Shown in pieces: positions 13,741-46,993 of a DNA stretch of 52,477 nt. The stretch covers positions 1-52,477 of the forward strand of contig CANBVR010000004.1 of the NCBI GenBank assembly GCA_947372965.1. Direction: 5' to 3'. A program made the position numbers and the translations under genes. The number at the start of each line of letters is the position of its first letter. Positions within the stretch are counted from its first letter, which is position 1. Under the pieces are notes generated by a model. That model did no database searches, was not told where the DNA came from, and saw only the letters and a program-made list of their open reading frames with translations. The stretch comes from Actinomycetota bacterium. GTDB lineage: Bacteria > Actinomycetota > Actinomycetes > Nanopelagicales > Nanopelagicaceae.

Positions 13741-13860
13741 CCTAGGTCACGAGTTCCAAGTACTAGCCCCGGCTTATTGGACGGCAACCCTCCACCACGG
13801 TGGGGTGCTCCGGGTGAAGACCAGGTCGATTGCAAAGTGCAATCGTCAAGCGTGGGTAAC
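13741..13860 (+). ncRNA. SAM-IV riboswitch
   Basis: The stretch matches the actinobacterial SAM-IV consensus: GGTCACGAG, then AGCCCCGGCTTATTGG, CGGCAACCCTCC, GGTGGGGTGCTCCGGGTGA and the closing GACC that pairs with the 5' GGTC. A further hairpin (CGATTGC / GCAATCG) and the conserved CAAGCGTGGGTA element follow, as in this class. It sits before metY-metX, a known SAM-IV target. The aptamer binds S-adenosylmethionine and should lower expression when methionine supply is ample. Confidence 0.92.
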
Positions 13861-13875
13861 TCGAGAAATCTAATT

Positions 13876-13897
13876 ACCCCCTTATTTTCTGGGAGGT
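13876..13897 (+). promoter_or_regulatory. Candidate Shine-Dalgarno-sequestering hairpin of metY
   Basis: ACCCCC (13876-13881) can pair with the ribosome-binding site GGGAGGT (13891-13897) across a 9-nt loop, with one C-A mismatch. No terminator-like stem with T-run follows the aptamer, so translational control is more likely than transcription termination. Inference from pairing only. Confidence 0.4.
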
Positions 13898-13902
13898 TTG
13901 TC

Positions 13903-15222
13903 ATGTCATTTGAAATCAAGAACGCAGCATTTGAAACTCTGCAAGTGCACGCTGGTCAAGTACCAGATCCAACAACAGGCGCTCGCGCACTTCCGTTGTA
14001 TCAAACTACCGCATATCAATTCCGCGATTCCAAGCATGCCGCCGATCTATTTGGACTAGCTGAACTTGGAAATATCTACACCCGCATCATGAACCCGACG
14101 CAGGATGCTGTTGAACAACGTATTGCCGCCCTTGAAGGCGGAGTTGCCTCGCTTCTTGTTGCATCAGGCTCTGCTGCAACAACCTACGCAATTCTTAACG
14201 TTGCCGAAAATGGTGACCATATTGTTTCTTCACCAAGTCTTTACGGCGGAACCTATAACTTGTTCCATTACACCTTGAAGAAGTTCGGTATCGAAGTAAC
14301 TTTCGTTGAGGACCCATCCGATCCTGCATCATGGCAGGCCGCTGTCCGTCCAAACACCAAAGCCTTCTTCGGGGAGACGATTGCTAATCCAAAGAATGAA
14401 ATTTTGGATATTAAGACCATTGCAGATTTGGCACATAAGAACAACGTCCCGCTAATCGTTGATAACACAGTTGCGACACCGTTCTTAATTCGCCCAATTG
14501 AATATGGCGCAGATGTAGTAATCCACTCTGCGACAAAGTTCCTTTCAGGTCATGGAAACTCCGTAGTTGGAGCCATCGTTGATGCTGGAACTTTTGATTA
14601 CGCCAAGCACCCAGATCGCTTCCCGGGCTTCAATCAACCTGATGAGAGTTATCACGGTTTGGTTTATGCCCAAGCACTAGGAGTTGGTTCGGCATTCGGT
14701 GCAAACCTTTCCTACATCTTCCGCATTCGCCTGACTTTGCTTCGCGATACTGGTGCCGCAGTCAGCCCATTTAACGCCTGGCTTTTGGCGCAAGGCCTTG
14801 AGACTCTTTCACTTCGCATTGAACGCCATGTTCAAAATGCAAAGGAGCTAGCAACCTGGCTTGAAGCCCAACCGCTAGTTGAAAGCGTTAACTATGCAAC
14901 TTTGAAGTCAAACAAGTACAACGCGTTGGCAACAAAGTACGCGCCAAAGGGCAGCGGCTCTGTCCTCTCATTTGAGATTAAGGGTGGAATTGAAGCTGGC
15001 AAGAAATTTGTCGAAGCGCTCAAGTTGCACTCTCACGTTGCAAATATTGGAGATGTTCGTTCCCTAGTAATTCATCCAGCCTCAACAACTCACTCGCAGT
15101 TGAGTCCTGCCGAGCAAGCATCTGCAGGAGTAACTCCAGGGCTAATTCGCCTATCGGTCGGTATTGAAAATATCGAAGATATTAAGGCTGATATAGCAAT
15201 TGGTTTTGCAGCGGCAAAGTAG
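13903..15222 (+). CDS. metY: O-acetylhomoserine sulfhydrylase (Cys/Met metabolism PLP enzyme)
   Basis: Makes homocysteine from O-acetylhomoserine and sulfide. 439 aa. Seen: the opening ETLQVHAGQVPDPTTGARA, PLYQTTAYQF, YTRIMNPTQDAVEQRIAALEGG, and the PLP-lysine motif HSATKFLSGHGN. The long GYRIHPASTTHSQL-like tail (VIHPASTTHSQL) and ISVGIE-like end are typical of MetY. Start ATG 13903 has GGGAGG 6 nt upstream; a longer reading would begin inside the riboswitch. It forms a two-gene unit with metX, 18 bp downstream. Confidence 0.96.
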   Translation: MSFEIKNAAFETLQVHAGQVPDPTTGARALPLYQTTAYQFRDSKHAADLFGLAELGNIYTRIMNPTQDAVEQRIAALEGGVASLLVASGSAATTYAILNVAENGDHIVSSPSLYGGTYNLFHYTLKKFGIEVTFVEDPSDPASWQAAVRPNTKAFFGETIANPKNEILDIKTIADLAHKNNVPLIVDNTVATPFLIRPIEYGADVVIHSATKFLSGHGNSVVGAIVDAGTFDYAKHPDRFPGFNQPDESYHGLVYAQALGVGSAFGANLSYIFRIRLTLLRDTGAAVSPFNAWLLAQGLETLSLRIERHVQNAKELATWLEAQPLVESVNYATLKSNKYNALATKYAPKGSGSVLSFEIKGGIEAGKKFVEALKLHSHVANIGDVRSLVIHPASTTHSQLSPAEQASAGVTPGLIRLSVGIENIEDIKADIAIGFAAAK

Positions 15223-15240
15223 TCGAAGTAAAAACTGAAA

Positions 15241-16341
15241 ATGACTGCCGATTGTAATTGTCACGTAACCGGGGCTTGGCTAGAGAGCCATGACCCCGGC
15301 GATCGGCAATTTATAAAGATCGGTGATCTTGAACTTGAGTCCGGCGAGAAACTTCTAGATACAACAATTGCATATCAAACTTGGGGTGAATTAAACCCTG
15401 CTGGAGATAATGCAATTCTTGTAAACCACGCACTTACTGGTTGGTCAGATGTACCAGCTTGGTGGCCTTCGATCGTTGGGCCAGGCTTGCCTCTTGATAC
15501 GAATAAATATTTTGTAATTTGTCCGAATGTAATTGGTGGCTGTCAGGGAAGTACTGGCCCCTCTTCAATTGCACCGGATGGAAAACGTTGGGGATCACGC
15601 TTTCCAAGTGTGACGATTCGCGACATGGTTGCCGCTGAATTGGCTTTAACCAATGCCCTTGGAATTTCGCATTACATTCTGGCCGTTGGCCCCTCTCTTG
15701 GCGGAATGCGCTCTTTGGAATGGGCAATTGCGCATCCGACGCGAGTAAATGCAATCTGTACCATCGGTTCCTCAGCTGTGGCAACGGGCGATCAAATTGG
15801 TGCTGCCTCAATTCAAATTCGTGCAATTAAATCCGATCCGCATTACAACAACGGTGATTACTACGAGCAAAAAGTTGGGCCAACCGAAGGTATGGGAATC
15901 GCTCGTCGAATCGCTCATCTGACCTACCGAACCGAATCGGAGATGGATGTTCGCTTTGGCCGAGAACTTCAAGGTGATGAAACAGGCCGGTATGCCGTTG
16001 AGTCATACCTTGATCATCAAGCCCAAAAACTCGCAAAGCGTTTTGATGCAAATACTTATATCGCACTGACGGAGGCCATGAATTCGCACGATGTGGGTCG
16101 TGACCGCGGTGGGGTAGCAGAGGCACTTTCCGCCATAACAATTCCAGTTGTGGTTGTTTCCATTGATTCCGATCGACTCTTTCCACCTCGCCTCCAGGAA
16201 GAAATTGTCGAGTTGACCCCAACTAGCCAACCTCTGGTGACGATTTCATCGCCCTTTGGCCATGATGGATTCCTGATTGATGTTGAGGCGGTCGGCACCG
16301 TGCTTCAAAGCGCCTTAAAGTTGGGCGAAAGCAGAAAATAG
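15241..16341 (+). CDS. metX: Homoserine O-acetyltransferase
   Basis: Supplies the MetY substrate by acetylating homoserine with acetyl-CoA. 366 aa, alpha/beta-hydrolase fold. Nucleophile Ser lies in VGPSLGGMRSLEWA, the acid Asp in VVVSIDSDRLFPP, and the His in SSPFGHDGFLID. Also typical are NHALTGWSD and CPNVIGGCQGSTGPSS. Start ATG 15241 follows metY closely and has only a weak Shine-Dalgarno sequence, so coupled translation and shared SAM-IV control are likely. A succinyl-donor role cannot be wholly excluded by eye. Confidence 0.95.
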   Translation: MTADCNCHVTGAWLESHDPGDRQFIKIGDLELESGEKLLDTTIAYQTWGELNPAGDNAILVNHALTGWSDVPAWWPSIVGPGLPLDTNKYFVICPNVIGGCQGSTGPSSIAPDGKRWGSRFPSVTIRDMVAAELALTNALGISHYILAVGPSLGGMRSLEWAIAHPTRVNAICTIGSSAVATGDQIGAASIQIRAIKSDPHYNNGDYYEQKVGPTEGMGIARRIAHLTYRTESEMDVRFGRELQGDETGRYAVESYLDHQAQKLAKRFDANTYIALTEAMNSHDVGRDRGGVAEALSAITIPVVVVSIDSDRLFPPRLQEEIVELTPTSQPLVTISSPFGHDGFLIDVEAVGTVLQSALKLGESRK

Positions 16342-42971: not shown

Positions 42972-44837
42972 TTAGCCAAGAGTGATCGTTACTAGCGAAC
43001 CTGGTTTTGCCTTTGTTCCGCTTGCTGGTGAAATATTTGTAACGGTCTTCACCTTTTTGCTGCCAATCTTCTTCACCTTTACCTGGAAACCAAGATTTTC
43101 CAAAATAGTTGCGGCTTTAATCTCGGTGAGTGAATAGACATTTGGAATGAAGATTGCGGCAGGTCCCTTTGAAATAGTAAGTGTTAACTTGCTGCCTCTA
43201 GCAAGCGGAGAACTTCCATCAGGGTTCTGCGAAATCACAGTTCCAAGTGGAACCGTATCGCTGTACTCATAGGTGGAATTAACAATTATTCCGGCGGAAG
43301 TAATCTCATTTAACGCCTGGTCACTTGTCTTACCAACATAAGAATTAACACTTACTTGCTCGATACCTTGGCTAATAACGAGATCAACTGTAGATCCCTT
43401 GCGAGCTTGAGATTTAGCAGATGGGCTACTTGAAACTATGAGGTCCATTTCACGAGTAGCGCTAAATCCTTTAGTGATCCGGCCAACTTTTAAACCAGCA
43501 GCCTCAAGAATGACTGTTGCCGAATCGATATTAAGTCCGGCAAGTGCTGGAACAACAATCCGATCAGGTCCCTTAGATATTTGTAAGTGGACTGTTCCGT
43601 TTATGGAAACTTTCCCTCCGCCCGCAGGCTTGGAAAGGATTACTTTATCTTTTGGAACATCTTCACTAAATACCACATCGGAAATATCTGCCTTGAGGCC
43701 AAGTCCACTCAAGACTTTAGTGGCTTCTCCCTGGGTCATTCCAGCCAAAGATGGGATAGAGATTTTATTTCCCCCGCCAACAAATTTATATCCCGTGAAG
43801 AGAAGTGCAAACAAAATTAAGAGCGCGACCGCTCTATTACGCTTTACACGATTAGAGGTCTTTCGCTTCCGGCGAATTTCAGCGGTAGTGGTATTTCCAG
43901 TTTTTTCTTTCACGGGCTCACGCCGTTTCTTCTCAGGTTTGGCTCTTTGAATTGGAATATCCAATTCAAGACTTAGTTGTCGACGCTTTGGGTCAAGTTT
44001 CTGCAAAATGGCTTGAAAATCTTCTTGCATCGCACCGGCACTTGCGTATCTCTTATCTGGATTATTGGCGGTTGCCTTAACCACCAAATTATCAAGTTCC
44101 GGTGGAATCTCAGAGCGAAGAGTAGAAGGCGCTGGAACATTTTCATTTACATGCATATAGGCGATTTGAATTGGGGATTCGCCATCGTATGGCTTCTTTC
44201 CCGTGAGCATTTCAAAAAGAACTATGCCGGCGGCATAAACATCGCTTCTGGCATCTGAAATTCCACGTTGTACTTGCTCGGGGGAGAGATAAGAAACGCT
44301 TCCCAAAATGACGCTAGATTCTGCGGTCATTGTGGCGCCCATATCCATTGCCCTGGCAAGTCCAAAATCTGCGATCTTCACTCGACCATCTTTTGAGATC
44401 AGAATATTTTCTGGCTTGATATCTCGGTGAAGGATTCCTTTTCGATGTGCAGCCGAAAGGGCGCTCAAGATTGGAGCAAAATATCGAAGTGCATCTTCAA
44501 TTTTCAACTGGCCTTGTTCGTGGATTAAATCTCGAAGCGTAAATCCATCTATTAATTCCATAACTATGAATACTGCTGGCGCTCCACCCTCATTCCATCC
44601 TTGATCTTGGATCGCAACAATATTTGGGTGGGAAAGTGCAGCAGCTGCCTTTGCTTCTCGAATGAAGCGGTTTACAAAATCTTCATCGTTTGCAAGATGC
44701 GAATGCATAATTTTTACGGCAACAGTTCGATCTAGTCGAAGGTCAAGAGCCGAGTAAATAGTTGCCATTCCGCCAGCAGCAATAATCCGCTGAAGCTGAT
44801 AGCGGTTATCGATTATTTCGCCGGTTAGGTCGGACAC
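42972..44837 (-). CDS. Ser/Thr protein kinase with PASTA repeats (PknB/PknL type)
   Basis: Membrane receptor kinase, 621 aa. Residues about 10-270 are the kinase: GGMATIYSALD, VAVKIM (Lys), HRDIKPENI (catalytic Asp), DFGLAR. A juxtamembrane basic stretch leads to one helix near residues 335-351 (AVALLILFALLFTGYKF), then four PASTA repeats that may bind peptidoglycan or muropeptides. No phosphatase, FHA or rodA/pbpA genes are beside it, unlike the pknB locus. Position near class II aroF and crtE-metF recalls M. tuberculosis pknL. GTG 44837 has TAAGAT ending 6 nt upstream. Confidence 0.94.
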   Translation of the reverse strand: MSDLTGEIIDNRYQLQRIIAAGGMATIYSALDLRLDRTVAVKIMHSHLANDEDFVNRFIREAKAAAALSHPNIVAIQDQGWNEGGAPAVFIVMELIDGFTLRDLIHEQGQLKIEDALRYFAPILSALSAAHRKGILHRDIKPENILISKDGRVKIADFGLARAMDMGATMTAESSVILGSVSYLSPEQVQRGISDARSDVYAAGIVLFEMLTGKKPYDGESPIQIAYMHVNENVPAPSTLRSEIPPELDNLVVKATANNPDKRYASAGAMQEDFQAILQKLDPKRRQLSLELDIPIQRAKPEKKRREPVKEKTGNTTTAEIRRKRKTSNRVKRNRAVALLILFALLFTGYKFVGGGNKISIPSLAGMTQGEATKVLSGLGLKADISDVVFSEDVPKDKVILSKPAGGGKVSINGTVHLQISKGPDRIVVPALAGLNIDSATVILEAAGLKVGRITKGFSATREMDLIVSSSPSAKSQARKGSTVDLVISQGIEQVSVNSYVGKTSDQALNEITSAGIIVNSTYEYSDTVPLGTVISQNPDGSSPLARGSKLTLTISKGPAAIFIPNVYSLTEIKAATILENLGFQVKVKKIGSKKVKTVTNISPASGTKAKPGSLVTITLG

Positions 44838-44843
44838 GCTTAA

Positions 44844-44849
44844 ATCTTA
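44844..44849 (-). promoter_or_regulatory. Candidate -10 of the PASTA kinase gene
   Basis: TAAGAT on the minus strand ends 6 nt before GTG 44837, at the very end of the upstream P-loop kinase gene. Suggests a separate, leaderless transcript. No clear -35. Confidence 0.4.
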
Positions 44850-45416
44850 GTTAATTGATAGCCCACTTAAGCGGTAATCCGCGCGCTTCTTAGTGCCTTC
44901 TTCCTCAAAATAGCGACTTTGAGTTCGGATGAATTCATCCATTTGTGGGGCGATCGCCACCCCGTCACGTTCTAGGACTCTTTCAAGTCCAATGTGAATC
45001 GGCACTTCGATCCAGATAGATGCTGCGATCTTTTCACTAATAGCTAATTGCCCAGATCCTACACCTTCTAAAATTAAGTATTTAGGGGCTGGAAAATTTA
45101 CTCGTGAATCTACCTTTCCAGAACCCCAATTGAAAGGTTCAAATTCAATTCGATCTTCAAATTCAACTAGACCTAGGATTTGCTTTAGAAGCTTTGACAA
45201 ATCATTGGTGAGAGTATTTTCCCAACCACGATACAAATCATCCATATGGATAGTGTTTACATCGGCAAATTGGTCGGCAAGTTGGTCGGTAATTTTTCGG
45301 GCAAGTGTTGTCTTGCCCGAGCCGGCTGGCCCATCAATTGCTAAAACGATCGTTTTTCCACACGACGGGCTTAGAACTTGGAGGTGGTTAATTACCTCTT
45401 GAGTTGTTTGACTCAT
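44847..45416 (-). CDS. Uridine-kinase-like P-loop kinase linked to a TPP riboswitch
   Basis: Small kinase, 189 aa from ATG 45416. P-loop IDGPAGSGKTTLARK near residues 27-41, an Asp-rich HMDDLYRGW near residue 58, ILEGVGSGQ near residue 115, and a LERVLERDG lid-like stretch near residue 145. It belongs to the uridine kinase/AAA-like family often annotated only as uridine kinase. It overlaps the PnuC-type gene by 29 bp, so shares its TPP control. A role in phosphorylating thiamine or a thiamine precursor is possible; it could also act on a nucleoside. A longer reading from 45455 has no family support. Confidence 0.75.
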   Translation of the reverse strand: MSQTTQEVINHLQVLSPSCGKTIVLAIDGPAGSGKTTLARKITDQLADQFADVNTIHMDDLYRGWENTLTNDLSKLLKQILGLVEFEDRIEFEPFNWGSGKVDSRVNFPAPKYLILEGVGSGQLAISEKIAASIWIEVPIHIGLERVLERDGVAIAPQMDEFIRTQSRYFEEEGTKKRADYRLSGLSIN

Positions 45417-45987
45417 TGAGCCACCGCTTCCAACCTGCGATTGCAATAAGGACAAAGATAAAATAGAGGATGGCAGTTAAATAAGAACCGCCACGCCAAA
45501 ATTGGTAGGTATAAACAGCATCTACTACAAACCAAATTGGCCAAGATTCATATTTCTCTACGACCATTAATACTTGAGCAATACAACTTCCAACAAATCC
45601 AAATGCATCAGTTAGTGATGCAGCAGCACCTATCTTCTTTAAAATAGGGTATAGAGAGAACCAACCAACTAAAAATGCCAGCGCCCAAAAAGCTTTATGG
45701 CGTCTTGATAATTTTTCCGGGGAGGCACCCTTTTTACCCCAGCCAAACCAACCCCAAAAACCTCCGGCGATAAAGATAAATTGAAGAAAGGCACTCGCGT
45801 AGTACTTCTGTTGAAAAAAAAGGCCAGCATAGAGAAGTGAACTTAAATTCCACCAAGACCAAGTTGCACGAGGTCCCCAAATCCCTAAACCAACCCCGAT
45901 CACCGAAGTTATAAATGCTAAGAGTTCTAGTAATGATAATTTGTAACCCCAAGCAGTAAATACTGTAACCATTAAATTAAAGTGCAT
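45388..45987 (-). CDS. pnuT: PnuC-family vitamin transporter, probable PnuT (thiamine)
   Basis: Membrane protein, 199 aa, about 7 helices. Seen: SLLELLAFITSVIGVGLGIWG, WSWWNLSSLLYAGLFF, QFIFIAGGFWGWFGWG, and the family motif YESWPIWFVVDAVY with WRGGSYLTAILY. PnuC proteins carry nicotinamide riboside, riboflavin (PnuX) or thiamine (PnuT) by facilitated diffusion and rely on a kinase for trapping. The TPP riboswitch in its leader argues for thiamine. ATG 45987 has AAAGGGG 5 nt upstream. Confidence 0.88.
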   Translation of the reverse strand: MHFNLMVTVFTAWGYKLSLLELLAFITSVIGVGLGIWGPRATWSWWNLSSLLYAGLFFQQKYYASAFLQFIFIAGGFWGWFGWGKKGASPEKLSRRHKAFWALAFLVGWFSLYPILKKIGAAASLTDAFGFVGSCIAQVLMVVEKYESWPIWFVVDAVYTYQFWRGGSYLTAILYFIFVLIAIAGWKRWLNESNNSRGN

Positions 45988-45992
45988 TAAGA

Positions 45993-46080
45993 CCCCTTTC
46001 CAATTCGCATTACCGAACTGGTTCTACGGTCGATCTGAATTTCAGATCCTCTCAGCCAACTAATCGGCTCCCGTTGAGAC
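45993..46080 (-). ncRNA. TPP riboswitch (THI element)
   Basis: Read on the minus strand it gives the TPP aptamer pattern: ACGGGAGCC, an 8-nt loop, GGCTGAGA (CTGAGA at 46050-46055), a variable stem GATCTGAAATTCAGATC, GACCGT closing P2, then AACCAGTTCGGTAATGCG and TTGGAA. The 3' arm runs into AAAGGGG (45993-45999), the ribosome site of pnuT, and TCTC (46076-46079) can pair with GGGG. This suggests that bound TPP hides the ribosome site. The class is clear; the switching mechanism is inferred. Confidence 0.92.
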
Positions 46081-46093
46081 CTACGTTAGCAAA

Positions 46094-46993
46094 CTATCTA
46101 GCGCGGCGCGCCCGCAAGTAAGCAGGAAGAGCAACTTTTATTCGGCGCCAAGTCGAAGTCTTCGCGCGGATTTTGAAGATTTCATAGTCAATCTTCTGTA
46201 CTTCATCGACGATGCCACAATAAAGTTCACTTGCAGCTTCGATGCAGGCGCGACTTTCAGGTGCCAAGTAGGCAATCCCGGGAGTTGCTTCACGTTGCAA
46301 TCTTCGAACCCGCTCAATCTGCTCCTTTAGCGCGCTTTTAATCTGTGGAGTCAAAACCTTAGCCTCCAACATCTCTGAGGTAACGCCATGATTTTGTAGC
46401 TCCTGAATTGGGAGATATACCCGACCTCGATCTAAATCTTCTCCGACATCACGAATGAAATTTGCTAGCTGAAAAGCAGTTCCAAGTTTTTCGGCACAAA
46501 CCTTTGCCGCCTCAATATCGCCCCCCAGAATTGGGACCATTTGCAGGCCAATTACTGAAGCTGAGCCATAGACATATTCCATTAAATCTTCGAATGTCTG
46601 ATACTGGGAAACAGTCAGATCCATTGTCATCGAGTGCAGGAATGCTTCGAAATATCCAATTGGAATTGCAAAGCGTTGGACTGTATCTACAAGGGCGCGT
46701 CCAATGTGGTCTTTGCTGGTACCAGTCTTAATGTCAGCAAGGACTCCCTTGCCCCATCTCTCTAGTTCTGCAGCCTTCTCTTCTTCTGACAACGTGGAAG
46801 ATAAGTCATCTACAATTTCATCCGCGTATCTCGCAAATCCATACAGGGCATGTACATGAGGTCGTTTAGCTGGCGGTAATAAAAGTGTTGCAAGATAGTA
46901 AGTCTTTCCATGCAGCGAATTTAGCCGCTCACATTCTTCATATGAGGCTCGAAGTTGCGGATCCAAAATCCCAGCAGCAGTTAATTCATCCAT
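46094..46993 (-). CDS. crtB: Phytoene synthase
   Basis: Joins two geranylgeranyl diphosphates to phytoene. 299 aa. Seen: YGFARYADEIVDD near residue 55 and NFIRDVGEDLDRGRVYLP near residue 180, the two Asp-rich motifs that bind diphosphate through Mg. LPPAKRPHVHALYGFAR is also typical. A hydroxysqualene-type HpnC/D reading is less likely because CrtI and CrtE are the partners. Last gene of crtE-crtI-crtB, 6 bp after crtI. Confidence 0.94.
   Translation of the reverse strand: MDELTAAGILDPQLRASYEECERLNSLHGKTYYLATLLLPPAKRPHVHALYGFARYADEIVDDLSSTLSEEEKAAELERWGKGVLADIKTGTSKDHIGRALVDTVQRFAIPIGYFEAFLHSMTMDLTVSQYQTFEDLMEYVYGSASVIGLQMVPILGGDIEAAKVCAEKLGTAFQLANFIRDVGEDLDRGRVYLPIQELQNHGVTSEMLEAKVLTPQIKSALKEQIERVRRLQREATPGIAYLAPESRACIEAASELYCGIVDEVQKIDYEIFKIRAKTSTWRRIKVALPAYLRARRAR

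Follow-up and report, generated by a model that had tools for sequence, protein, structure and literature searches.

A 52,477-nucleotide stretch of a draft genome from the order Nanopelagicales (the window) carries on its minus strand a TPP riboswitch aptamer, a gene for a PnuC-family transporter and a gene for a P-loop kinase. ORF coordinates confirm this order, which the first-pass annotation had read from the letters, together with an overlap of 29 bp between the two genes when the kinase is counted from its ATG. Sequence comparison makes it likely that these parts form a vitamin B1 salvage unit of two genes, controlled by TPP feedback, in which a thiamine kinase of the uridine-kinase fold, unrelated to the known thiamine kinases, makes thiamine monophosphate (TMP) for ThiL. 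The source genome is a draft of 1.27 Mb (73 contigs, 92% complete), and its sampled order-mates span 1.0-2.2 Mb. The features of the unit and its flanks, all on the minus strand, are as follows.

46094-46993, minus strand: crtB, phytoene synthase (PF00494, 231.5 bits), flank outside the unit; the gene order is kept in many named loci
45981-46084, minus strand: TPP riboswitch aptamer (THI element), from RF00059 and covariation; overlaps the start codon of pnuT
46076-46081, minus strand: 5' strand of a possible outer stem (P1), GGUCUC; pairs with 45991-45996 when the helix is forced
45991-45998, minus strand: Shine-Dalgarno-like purine-rich AAGGGG, 5 nt ahead of the ATG, together with the 3' strand of the possible P1; by reading and fold
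45388-45987, minus strand: pnuT, PnuC-family candidate thiamine facilitator, 199 aa (PF04973, TIGR01528); putative substrate from the TPP aptamer
44847-45416 from the ATG, minus strand: P-loop kinase related to PRK06547, 189 aa, candidate thiamine kinase; by ORF, profile match and model
45309-45332, minus strand: Walker A motif GPAGSGKT, kinase residues 29-36; from an alignment of 66 kinases of the order
42972-44837, minus strand: pknB-like Ser/Thr protein kinase, the other flank, outside the unit; by ORF

The ORF list shows the kinase frame also open from an upstream TTG (44847-45455, minus strand). The gene at the place of the pknB-like flank in locus L180 matches NF033483 (PknB_PASTA_kin) at 603.1 bits. 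Elsewhere in the window, a SAM-IV riboswitch (13745-13858, plus strand, 103.3 bits) has behind it ORFs that by reading resemble O-acetylhomoserine sulfhydrylase and homoserine acetyltransferase (13777-16341).

At low TPP, the leader of the proposed unit would keep the ribosome site accessible, allowing translation of the two overlapping genes. PnuT would admit thiamine by facilitated diffusion, and the kinase would phosphorylate it to TMP, which would be unable to exit the cell and which ThiL, encoded elsewhere in most genomes of the order, would convert to TPP. At high TPP, the ligand would bind the aptamer, the outer stem could pair with the Shine-Dalgarno region and translation would drop.

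The TPP aptamer and the transporter

RF00059 matches the aptamer over 105 of 105 model positions at 41.6 bits (E 4.6e-7). This is below the Rfam gathering score of 54.3 bits, and the aptamer is therefore unlisted by the default window scan. The first-pass annotation had named failure in the TPP covariance model as an argument against its reading; the match misses the curated cut-off but is significant, and its pairs covary. The aptamer called there is thus real, although its end at 46080 misses four bases of the model match, which reaches 46084. It is the sole RF00059 match at E ≤ 0.001 in the draft genome.

All order-wide searches were run on the same 121 genomes. PnuT is found in 110 of them, and an Rfam TPP match lies directly upstream of 85 of these 110 genes. 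In 20 aptamer sequences from the order, compensatory changes occur at 9 of 21 consensus pairs; GCTGAGAGG and ACC are invariant, giving a CUGAGA/ACC core with covarying helices. A covariance model built from these 20 relatives was run on 14 of the 25 PnuT loci that have no Rfam match and found the aptamer at 13. At the fourteenth (L029), where it found none, the sequence stops 8 bases upstream of the gene. The upstream matches, the covariation and the matches of our own model argue that the window aptamer is not a chance hit. RF00059 exceeds its gathering score in nine of the 121 genomes, all nine without PnuT.

The outer stem is weak in the Rfam model alignment of the window aptamer and absent from the consensus structure of the 20-relative alignment. 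Positions 46076-46081 can form a six-pair P1 (G-U included) with 45991-45996 that takes in the GGGG ahead of the ATG, but only in a forced fold, at -35.4 kcal/mol against -39.9 kcal/mol for the different, unforced minimum-energy fold. Because P1 had to be forced and the unforced minimum is another fold, we infer rather than observe translational control, in which a ligand-stabilised P1 would mask the translation start.

The transporter matches PF04973 at 119.3 bits, over the cut-off, and TIGR01528 at 68.1 bits (cut-off 42.45). Its model (pLDDT 93.4) has seven long helices and matches PnuC 4qtn with a TM-score of 0.79 and 22% identity, a match that does not distinguish thiamine from nicotinamide riboside as substrate. 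The TPP aptamer points to thiamine.

The kinase and the missing thiamine enzymes

The best NCBIfam model for the kinase, ahead by 50 bits, is the unnamed PRK06547 (NF005115, hypothetical protein), at 86.6 bits against a cut-off of 173. On these profile scores the kinase is a relative of the PRK06547 family and no strict member. Both uridine kinase equivalogs, TIGR00235 and PRK05480, score far below their cut-offs (31.3 vs 220.3 and 36.2 vs 180 bits), and the reading as a uridine kinase was set aside. The sole Pfam cut-off passed is that of NPHP3_N (25.3 vs 24.8 bits), which we read as a general P-loop match; Pfam PRK, the uridine kinase family, stays below its own (16.5 vs 22). Neither the TPK domain PF04263 nor the APH domain PF01636 is among the 25 of 46 Pfam matches listed for the kinase.

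The kinase model (pLDDT 94.9, built from 66 sequences) lies nearest to uridine kinases. The closest solved folds are 1rz3, a possible uridine kinase (E 1.1e-10), and human UCK2 (E 4.5e-9), and nicotinamide riboside kinase 1 (2p0e) is among the PDB matches of the kinase profile (E 5.8e-6). The enzymes of these nearest folds transfer one phosphate. The window kinase shares fold and P-loop with the uridine kinase/PRK/nicotinamide riboside kinase superfamily, but identity is 15-22% among the 50 best fold matches listed, and it has signature residues of its own. Across the 66 kinases of the order, the Walker A residues G29, A31, G32, G34, K35 and T36 are invariant and the signature consists of H-x-D-x-x-Y-x-G-W, W97, EGVG and RxxxRD. 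Escherichia coli ThiK (YcfN) is alike in the proposed reaction, thiamine to TMP followed by ThiL; it has the APH fold, which the window kinase does not.

A normal TPK elsewhere in the genome would have spoken against the first-pass annotation, and by PF04263 none exists in the source genome or in any other of the 121, while 7 of 14 control genomes were positive. ThiC occurs in 2 of the 121. Some ThiE match was obtained in 17 and is convincing in five (G007, G044, G035, G059 and G110, E ≤ 1e-48), a count that leaves out G017, where a partial match summed with its neighbours passes the cut-off, and 11 short weak matches.

ThiL has been kept much more widely. Any match was found in 119 genomes, 108 of them over the cut-off; three lie just below it and two are fragments. 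Many of the weak matches are side matches in frames of 330-395 aa that by reading are PurM-like. Eight drafts, the source genome and seven others, show no ThiL match or weak ones only; the source draft has two weak matches, the better with E 2.6e-12, and we count ThiL as not found in it. All eight other genomes of the source genus have ThiL over the cut-off. The 17 single-contig genomes all contain PnuT, the kinase and ThiL (in G010 ThiL scores 181.3 bits against a cut-off of 184.15), and none has TPK, ThiC or a convincing ThiE, the short ThiE matches in G003 (E 3e-4) and G013 (E 6e-4) included. A cell in which ThiL occurs but neither ThiE nor TPK does must obtain TMP from somewhere. As far as profile searches can tell, most genomes of the order keep the step from TMP to TPP without a recognised route to TMP.

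Kinase loci in the order and across the phylum

The kinase is present in 118 of the 121 genomes and is the next gene downstream of PnuT, on the same strand, in 110 of 110, with a gap of -62 to 103 bases between the matched parts; in G074 a contig end falls inside the kinase and only a fragment adjoins PnuT. The adjacency is partly inherited synteny because the flanking crt-block genes keep their order too: metF-crtE-crtI-crtB-pknB-nfo is conserved around the unit in the named loci. For this reason we judge it weak evidence by itself. Among the named relatives that the kinase profile picked up are Candidatus Planktophila, Candidatus Nanopelagicaceae, an acI-labelled record and strain IMCC26103 (L212); we place the source in the acI lineage. 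Seven loci from metagenome-assembled genomes (L194, L198, L203, L205, L216, L219 and L222) combine a GC content of 0.41-0.49 with the acI arrangement of genes on either side of the kinase, and their Bifidobacterium breve or Streptomycetaceae titles look wrong.

A candidate thiamine importer was found in all 118 genomes with the kinase: 110 have PnuT, seven have SfuA/ThiB over the cut-off, and one (G044) has a TPP-led YkoE-type protein (PF09819). The seven SfuA/ThiB genes stand directly behind a TPP aptamer (G007, G058, G075, G080, G088, G108 and G113); no other of the 121 genomes exceeds the cut-off, and PnuT and an over-cut-off ThiB never occur in one genome. Weak SfuA matches in 36 further genomes fell below the cut-off and were taken as other binding proteins. 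In the eight PnuT-less genomes the kinase stays before the pknB-like gene and beside crt genes (crtE alone is near in L108 and L114), and a scan of these lone-kinase loci with our own model found an aptamer at none of the eight (L107-L114).

The three genomes without the kinase (G035, G059 and G110) belong to one genus, g8. Neither PnuT (E ≤ 1e-10) nor SfuA (E ≤ 0.001) is matched in them, and each has ThiE and two TPP aptamers. One aptamer leads thiO-thiS-thiG in all three, with ThiG assigned by Pfam throughout and ThiO and ThiS by model in G035; in the other two, similarity identifies ThiO, and ThiS is named from its size and position. In G035 and G110 the second aptamer stands before a CytX-like carrier (in G035, TIGR02358 at 205 bits, below its cut-off of 310). 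The crtB-pknB interval of this genus holds thiE, an Rv2175c-like gene and TPP-thiO-thiS-thiG (L180 7472-10755, L181 and L182). This gene content fits a cell that would make TMP from HMP and thiazole and import no thiamine. By this reading, the crtB-pknB locus holds either B1 synthesis genes or B1 salvage genes. As the genus is one clade, it counts as one event.

Among the best 80 of 415 named relatives, pnuT is beside the kinase in 68, judged by the marker genes searched. At three unrelated loci, named here crt, kgd and dinB-gerW, the kinase is immediately preceded by a TPP aptamer and a B1 importer. At the kgd locus, four units (L251, L253, L254 and L261) carry pnuT and the kinase between a tRNA (Rfam) and a gene that reads as SDR-like, followed by kgd, a TPP-dependent 2-oxoglutarate decarboxylase (NF008907, 1989.8 bits in L261); the pnuT-kinase unit thus stands near the gene of a TPP-dependent enzyme. 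The aptamer is upstream in all four (by our own model in 4, by Rfam at E ≤ 0.1 in 3). The fifth kgd locus (L236, 5983-6540) has a lone kinase without pnuT or aptamer. A ThiP-like match near it was rejected as a thiamine importer, being part of a spermidine/putrescine-type ABC system.

In genus g23, both genomes with the kinase (G388 and G345) have the order dinB-gerW-TPP-ykoE-ykoD-ykoC-kinase, with aptamers of 55.2 and 58.2 bits, over the gathering score. YkoEDC were assigned by Pfam families in L173 and by similarity in L263, and dinB and gerW by reading. A genome of the same family, G377, has dinB-gerW-kinase without an importer. Each of the three loci therefore has relatives that hold the kinase without an importer (L107-L114, L236 and L169), and at each the aptamer and importer separate the kinase from the gene it usually adjoins. 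In the tree, the YkoEDC-linked kinases are distant from the acI kinases, and PRK06547 is their best model (160.7 and 142.5 bits). Common to both are Y-x-G-W, EGxG and RxxxRD and the residues D28, G29, K35, D59, Y62, G64, W65, W97, E117, R146 and R150; positions 36, 57 and 119 differ. Eight f3 kinases, from large high-GC genomes that we read as Streptomyces, and three Nonomuraea kinases carry different residues at position 62.

Across the phylum, the kinase profile matches 26 of 276 genomes, the source genome included; this first look scored 11 candidates per genome, which makes absences soft. Outside the order, a scan of the best loci at the gathering score found a TPP aptamer near the kinase in 2 of 25 kinase genomes and none in the other 23. 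None was found either at eight named outside loci (L244, L247, L248, L252, L255, L256, L257 and L262). These negatives are soft as well, since most acI aptamers also fail the gathering score. A kinase family found mostly away from thiamine genes had been named as a point against the first-pass annotation; the outcome is mixed, for in the order 110 of 118 kinase genomes have the kinase directly behind PnuT, but outside it a TPP-controlled thiamine importer adjoins the kinase in 2 of 25 at the gathering score.

Four of these 25 genomes (G151, G231, G297 and G319) also have a full-length TPK match, and their kinases lack the Y62-G64 pair, and the ten outside kinase genomes that keep Y62 and G64 show no TPK match better than 1e-8. 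Among the TPK matches listed, the weak ones mostly span no more than approximately positions 8-45 in longer frames, which we take to be SteA-like. Phylum-wide co-occurrence of kinase and TPK (26 and 184 of 276 genomes) was too mixed for use as evidence and was set aside. Two large genomes contain a second, very divergent copy of the kinase (L264 2091-2525 in G281, and L265 6044-6652 in G302).

For the family as a whole, we lean slightly towards the view that PRK06547-like kinases are an actinobacterial thiamine kinase family, and the first such family to have the uridine-kinase fold. Their gene would be an old one that many actinomycetes carry unlinked. Thiamine importers under TPP control would have come to stand directly before it at unrelated loci, YkoEDC in one case and PnuT in two (or in one, with a later relocation), and in acI the kinase would have replaced a thiE-thiOSG locus upon loss of thiamine synthesis.

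Competing readings and significance

The foremost competing reading, which we regard as unlikely, holds that the kinase is unrelated to thiamine, that TPP-pnuT merely stands in front of it, and that the phosphorylation of thiamine falls to another enzyme, for instance a divergent APH-type protein. The block around the kinase is conserved in any case, lone kinases stand at the same locus without an aptamer (0 of 8, plus L236), and most contexts outside the order contain no thiamine gene. APH-type proteins, tallied over the Pfam cut-off, match in 119 of 121 genomes, which leaves room for a divergent ThiK; the closed genomes G001, G003 and G005 have one weak match each (E 3e-4 to 9e-4). Two genomes with PnuT and the kinase (G036 and G089), however, have no APH match at E ≤ 0.001. 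The reading also has to account for importers preceding the kinase at three unrelated loci, and for a kinase that is missing only where PnuT and ThiB are not found and ThiE is present.

We consider it quite improbable that the kinase is instead a thiamine pyrophosphokinase that makes TPP in one step, with ThiL as a leftover. A precedent can be found in Bacteroides, where, in the passages of PMC5613172 that treat the operon, a TPP riboswitch precedes pnuT and tnr3 and PnuT thus shares its operon with a TPK-type enzyme, called thiamine pyrophosphorylase. That system resembles ours in joining TPP aptamer, PnuT and a thiamine-converting enzyme; it differs in the enzyme, here a P-loop kinase of uridine-kinase fold in an order where we find no TPK. 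Although searches missed ThiL in the source genome and, in seven further drafts, either missed it or matched it weakly, it passes the cut-off in 108 of 121 and is present in 17 of 17 closed genomes. A useless ThiL is unlikely because the genomes are only 1.2-1.6 Mb. The one-phosphate transfer of the nearest folds likewise argues against a pyrophosphokinase.

Uptake of nicotinamide riboside by PnuC and its phosphorylation by an NR kinase, with a stray riboswitch in front, seems highly improbable to us. TIGR01528 does name the transporter PnuC, a nicotinamide riboside carrier, and NR kinase 1 is among the PDB matches of the kinase, but the aptamer is of TPP type and covaries, and genomes without PnuT put their TPP aptamers on ThiB-type or YkoE importers and keep the kinase. 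Barely credible, too, is a kinase acting on HMP or the thiazole alcohol to feed a ThiE salvage route: one thiamine operon of the order (L115) does include the kinases for these substrates, ThiD and ThiM, yet ThiE is unconvincing in 116 of 121 genomes, all 116 of which have the kinase, and the kinase is missing from the genus that has ThiE and a CytX-like carrier for HMP. The first-pass annotation had suggested that the kinase may phosphorylate thiamine or a precursor; the comparison supports the thiamine branch and leaves the precursor branch unsupported because ThiE would be needed to use HMP or thiazole.

The riboswitch-PnuT half of the proposed salvage unit was known before. In its account of four acI genomes, Kang et al. 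2017 (PMC5301498) describes all four strains as thiamine auxotrophs with a THI element upstream of pnuC, proposes PnuT, and states that nearly all salvage enzymes are missing. The lineage, the arrangement and the PnuT proposal are the same as here, and its strain IMCC26103 is our L212. The terms 'uridine kinase' and 'thiL' are absent from its main text. Relevant passages of Hamilton et al. 2017 (PMC5574706) give B1 as a seed compound, suggest nucleobase-type permeases for it, and report thiamine transporters as present in acI-A and acI-B and not expressed. A 2019 survey of vitamin pathways (PMC6593275) names ThiK, ThiM and ThiN, in the part on B1, as salvage enzymes, and auxotrophy or vitamins are treated in general terms in sections of PMC5976882, PMC7527133 and PMC12381374. 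Our search of the open-access literature found no report of a uridine-kinase-like thiamine kinase; a uridine-kinase-fold enzyme in this role was unfamiliar to the first-pass annotation, and the kinase half of the unit appears new, provisionally, as subscription papers were outside the scope of the search.

Judged from its genomic context, the kinase is probably an unrecognised enzyme that traps imported B1 in a freshwater bacterium unable to make the vitamin, and this would fill a gap in the vitamin acquisition of these bacteria. A new family of thiamine kinases, if true, would give a function to proteins now labelled hypothetical and would make dependence on B1 predictable in other actinomycetes without TPK.
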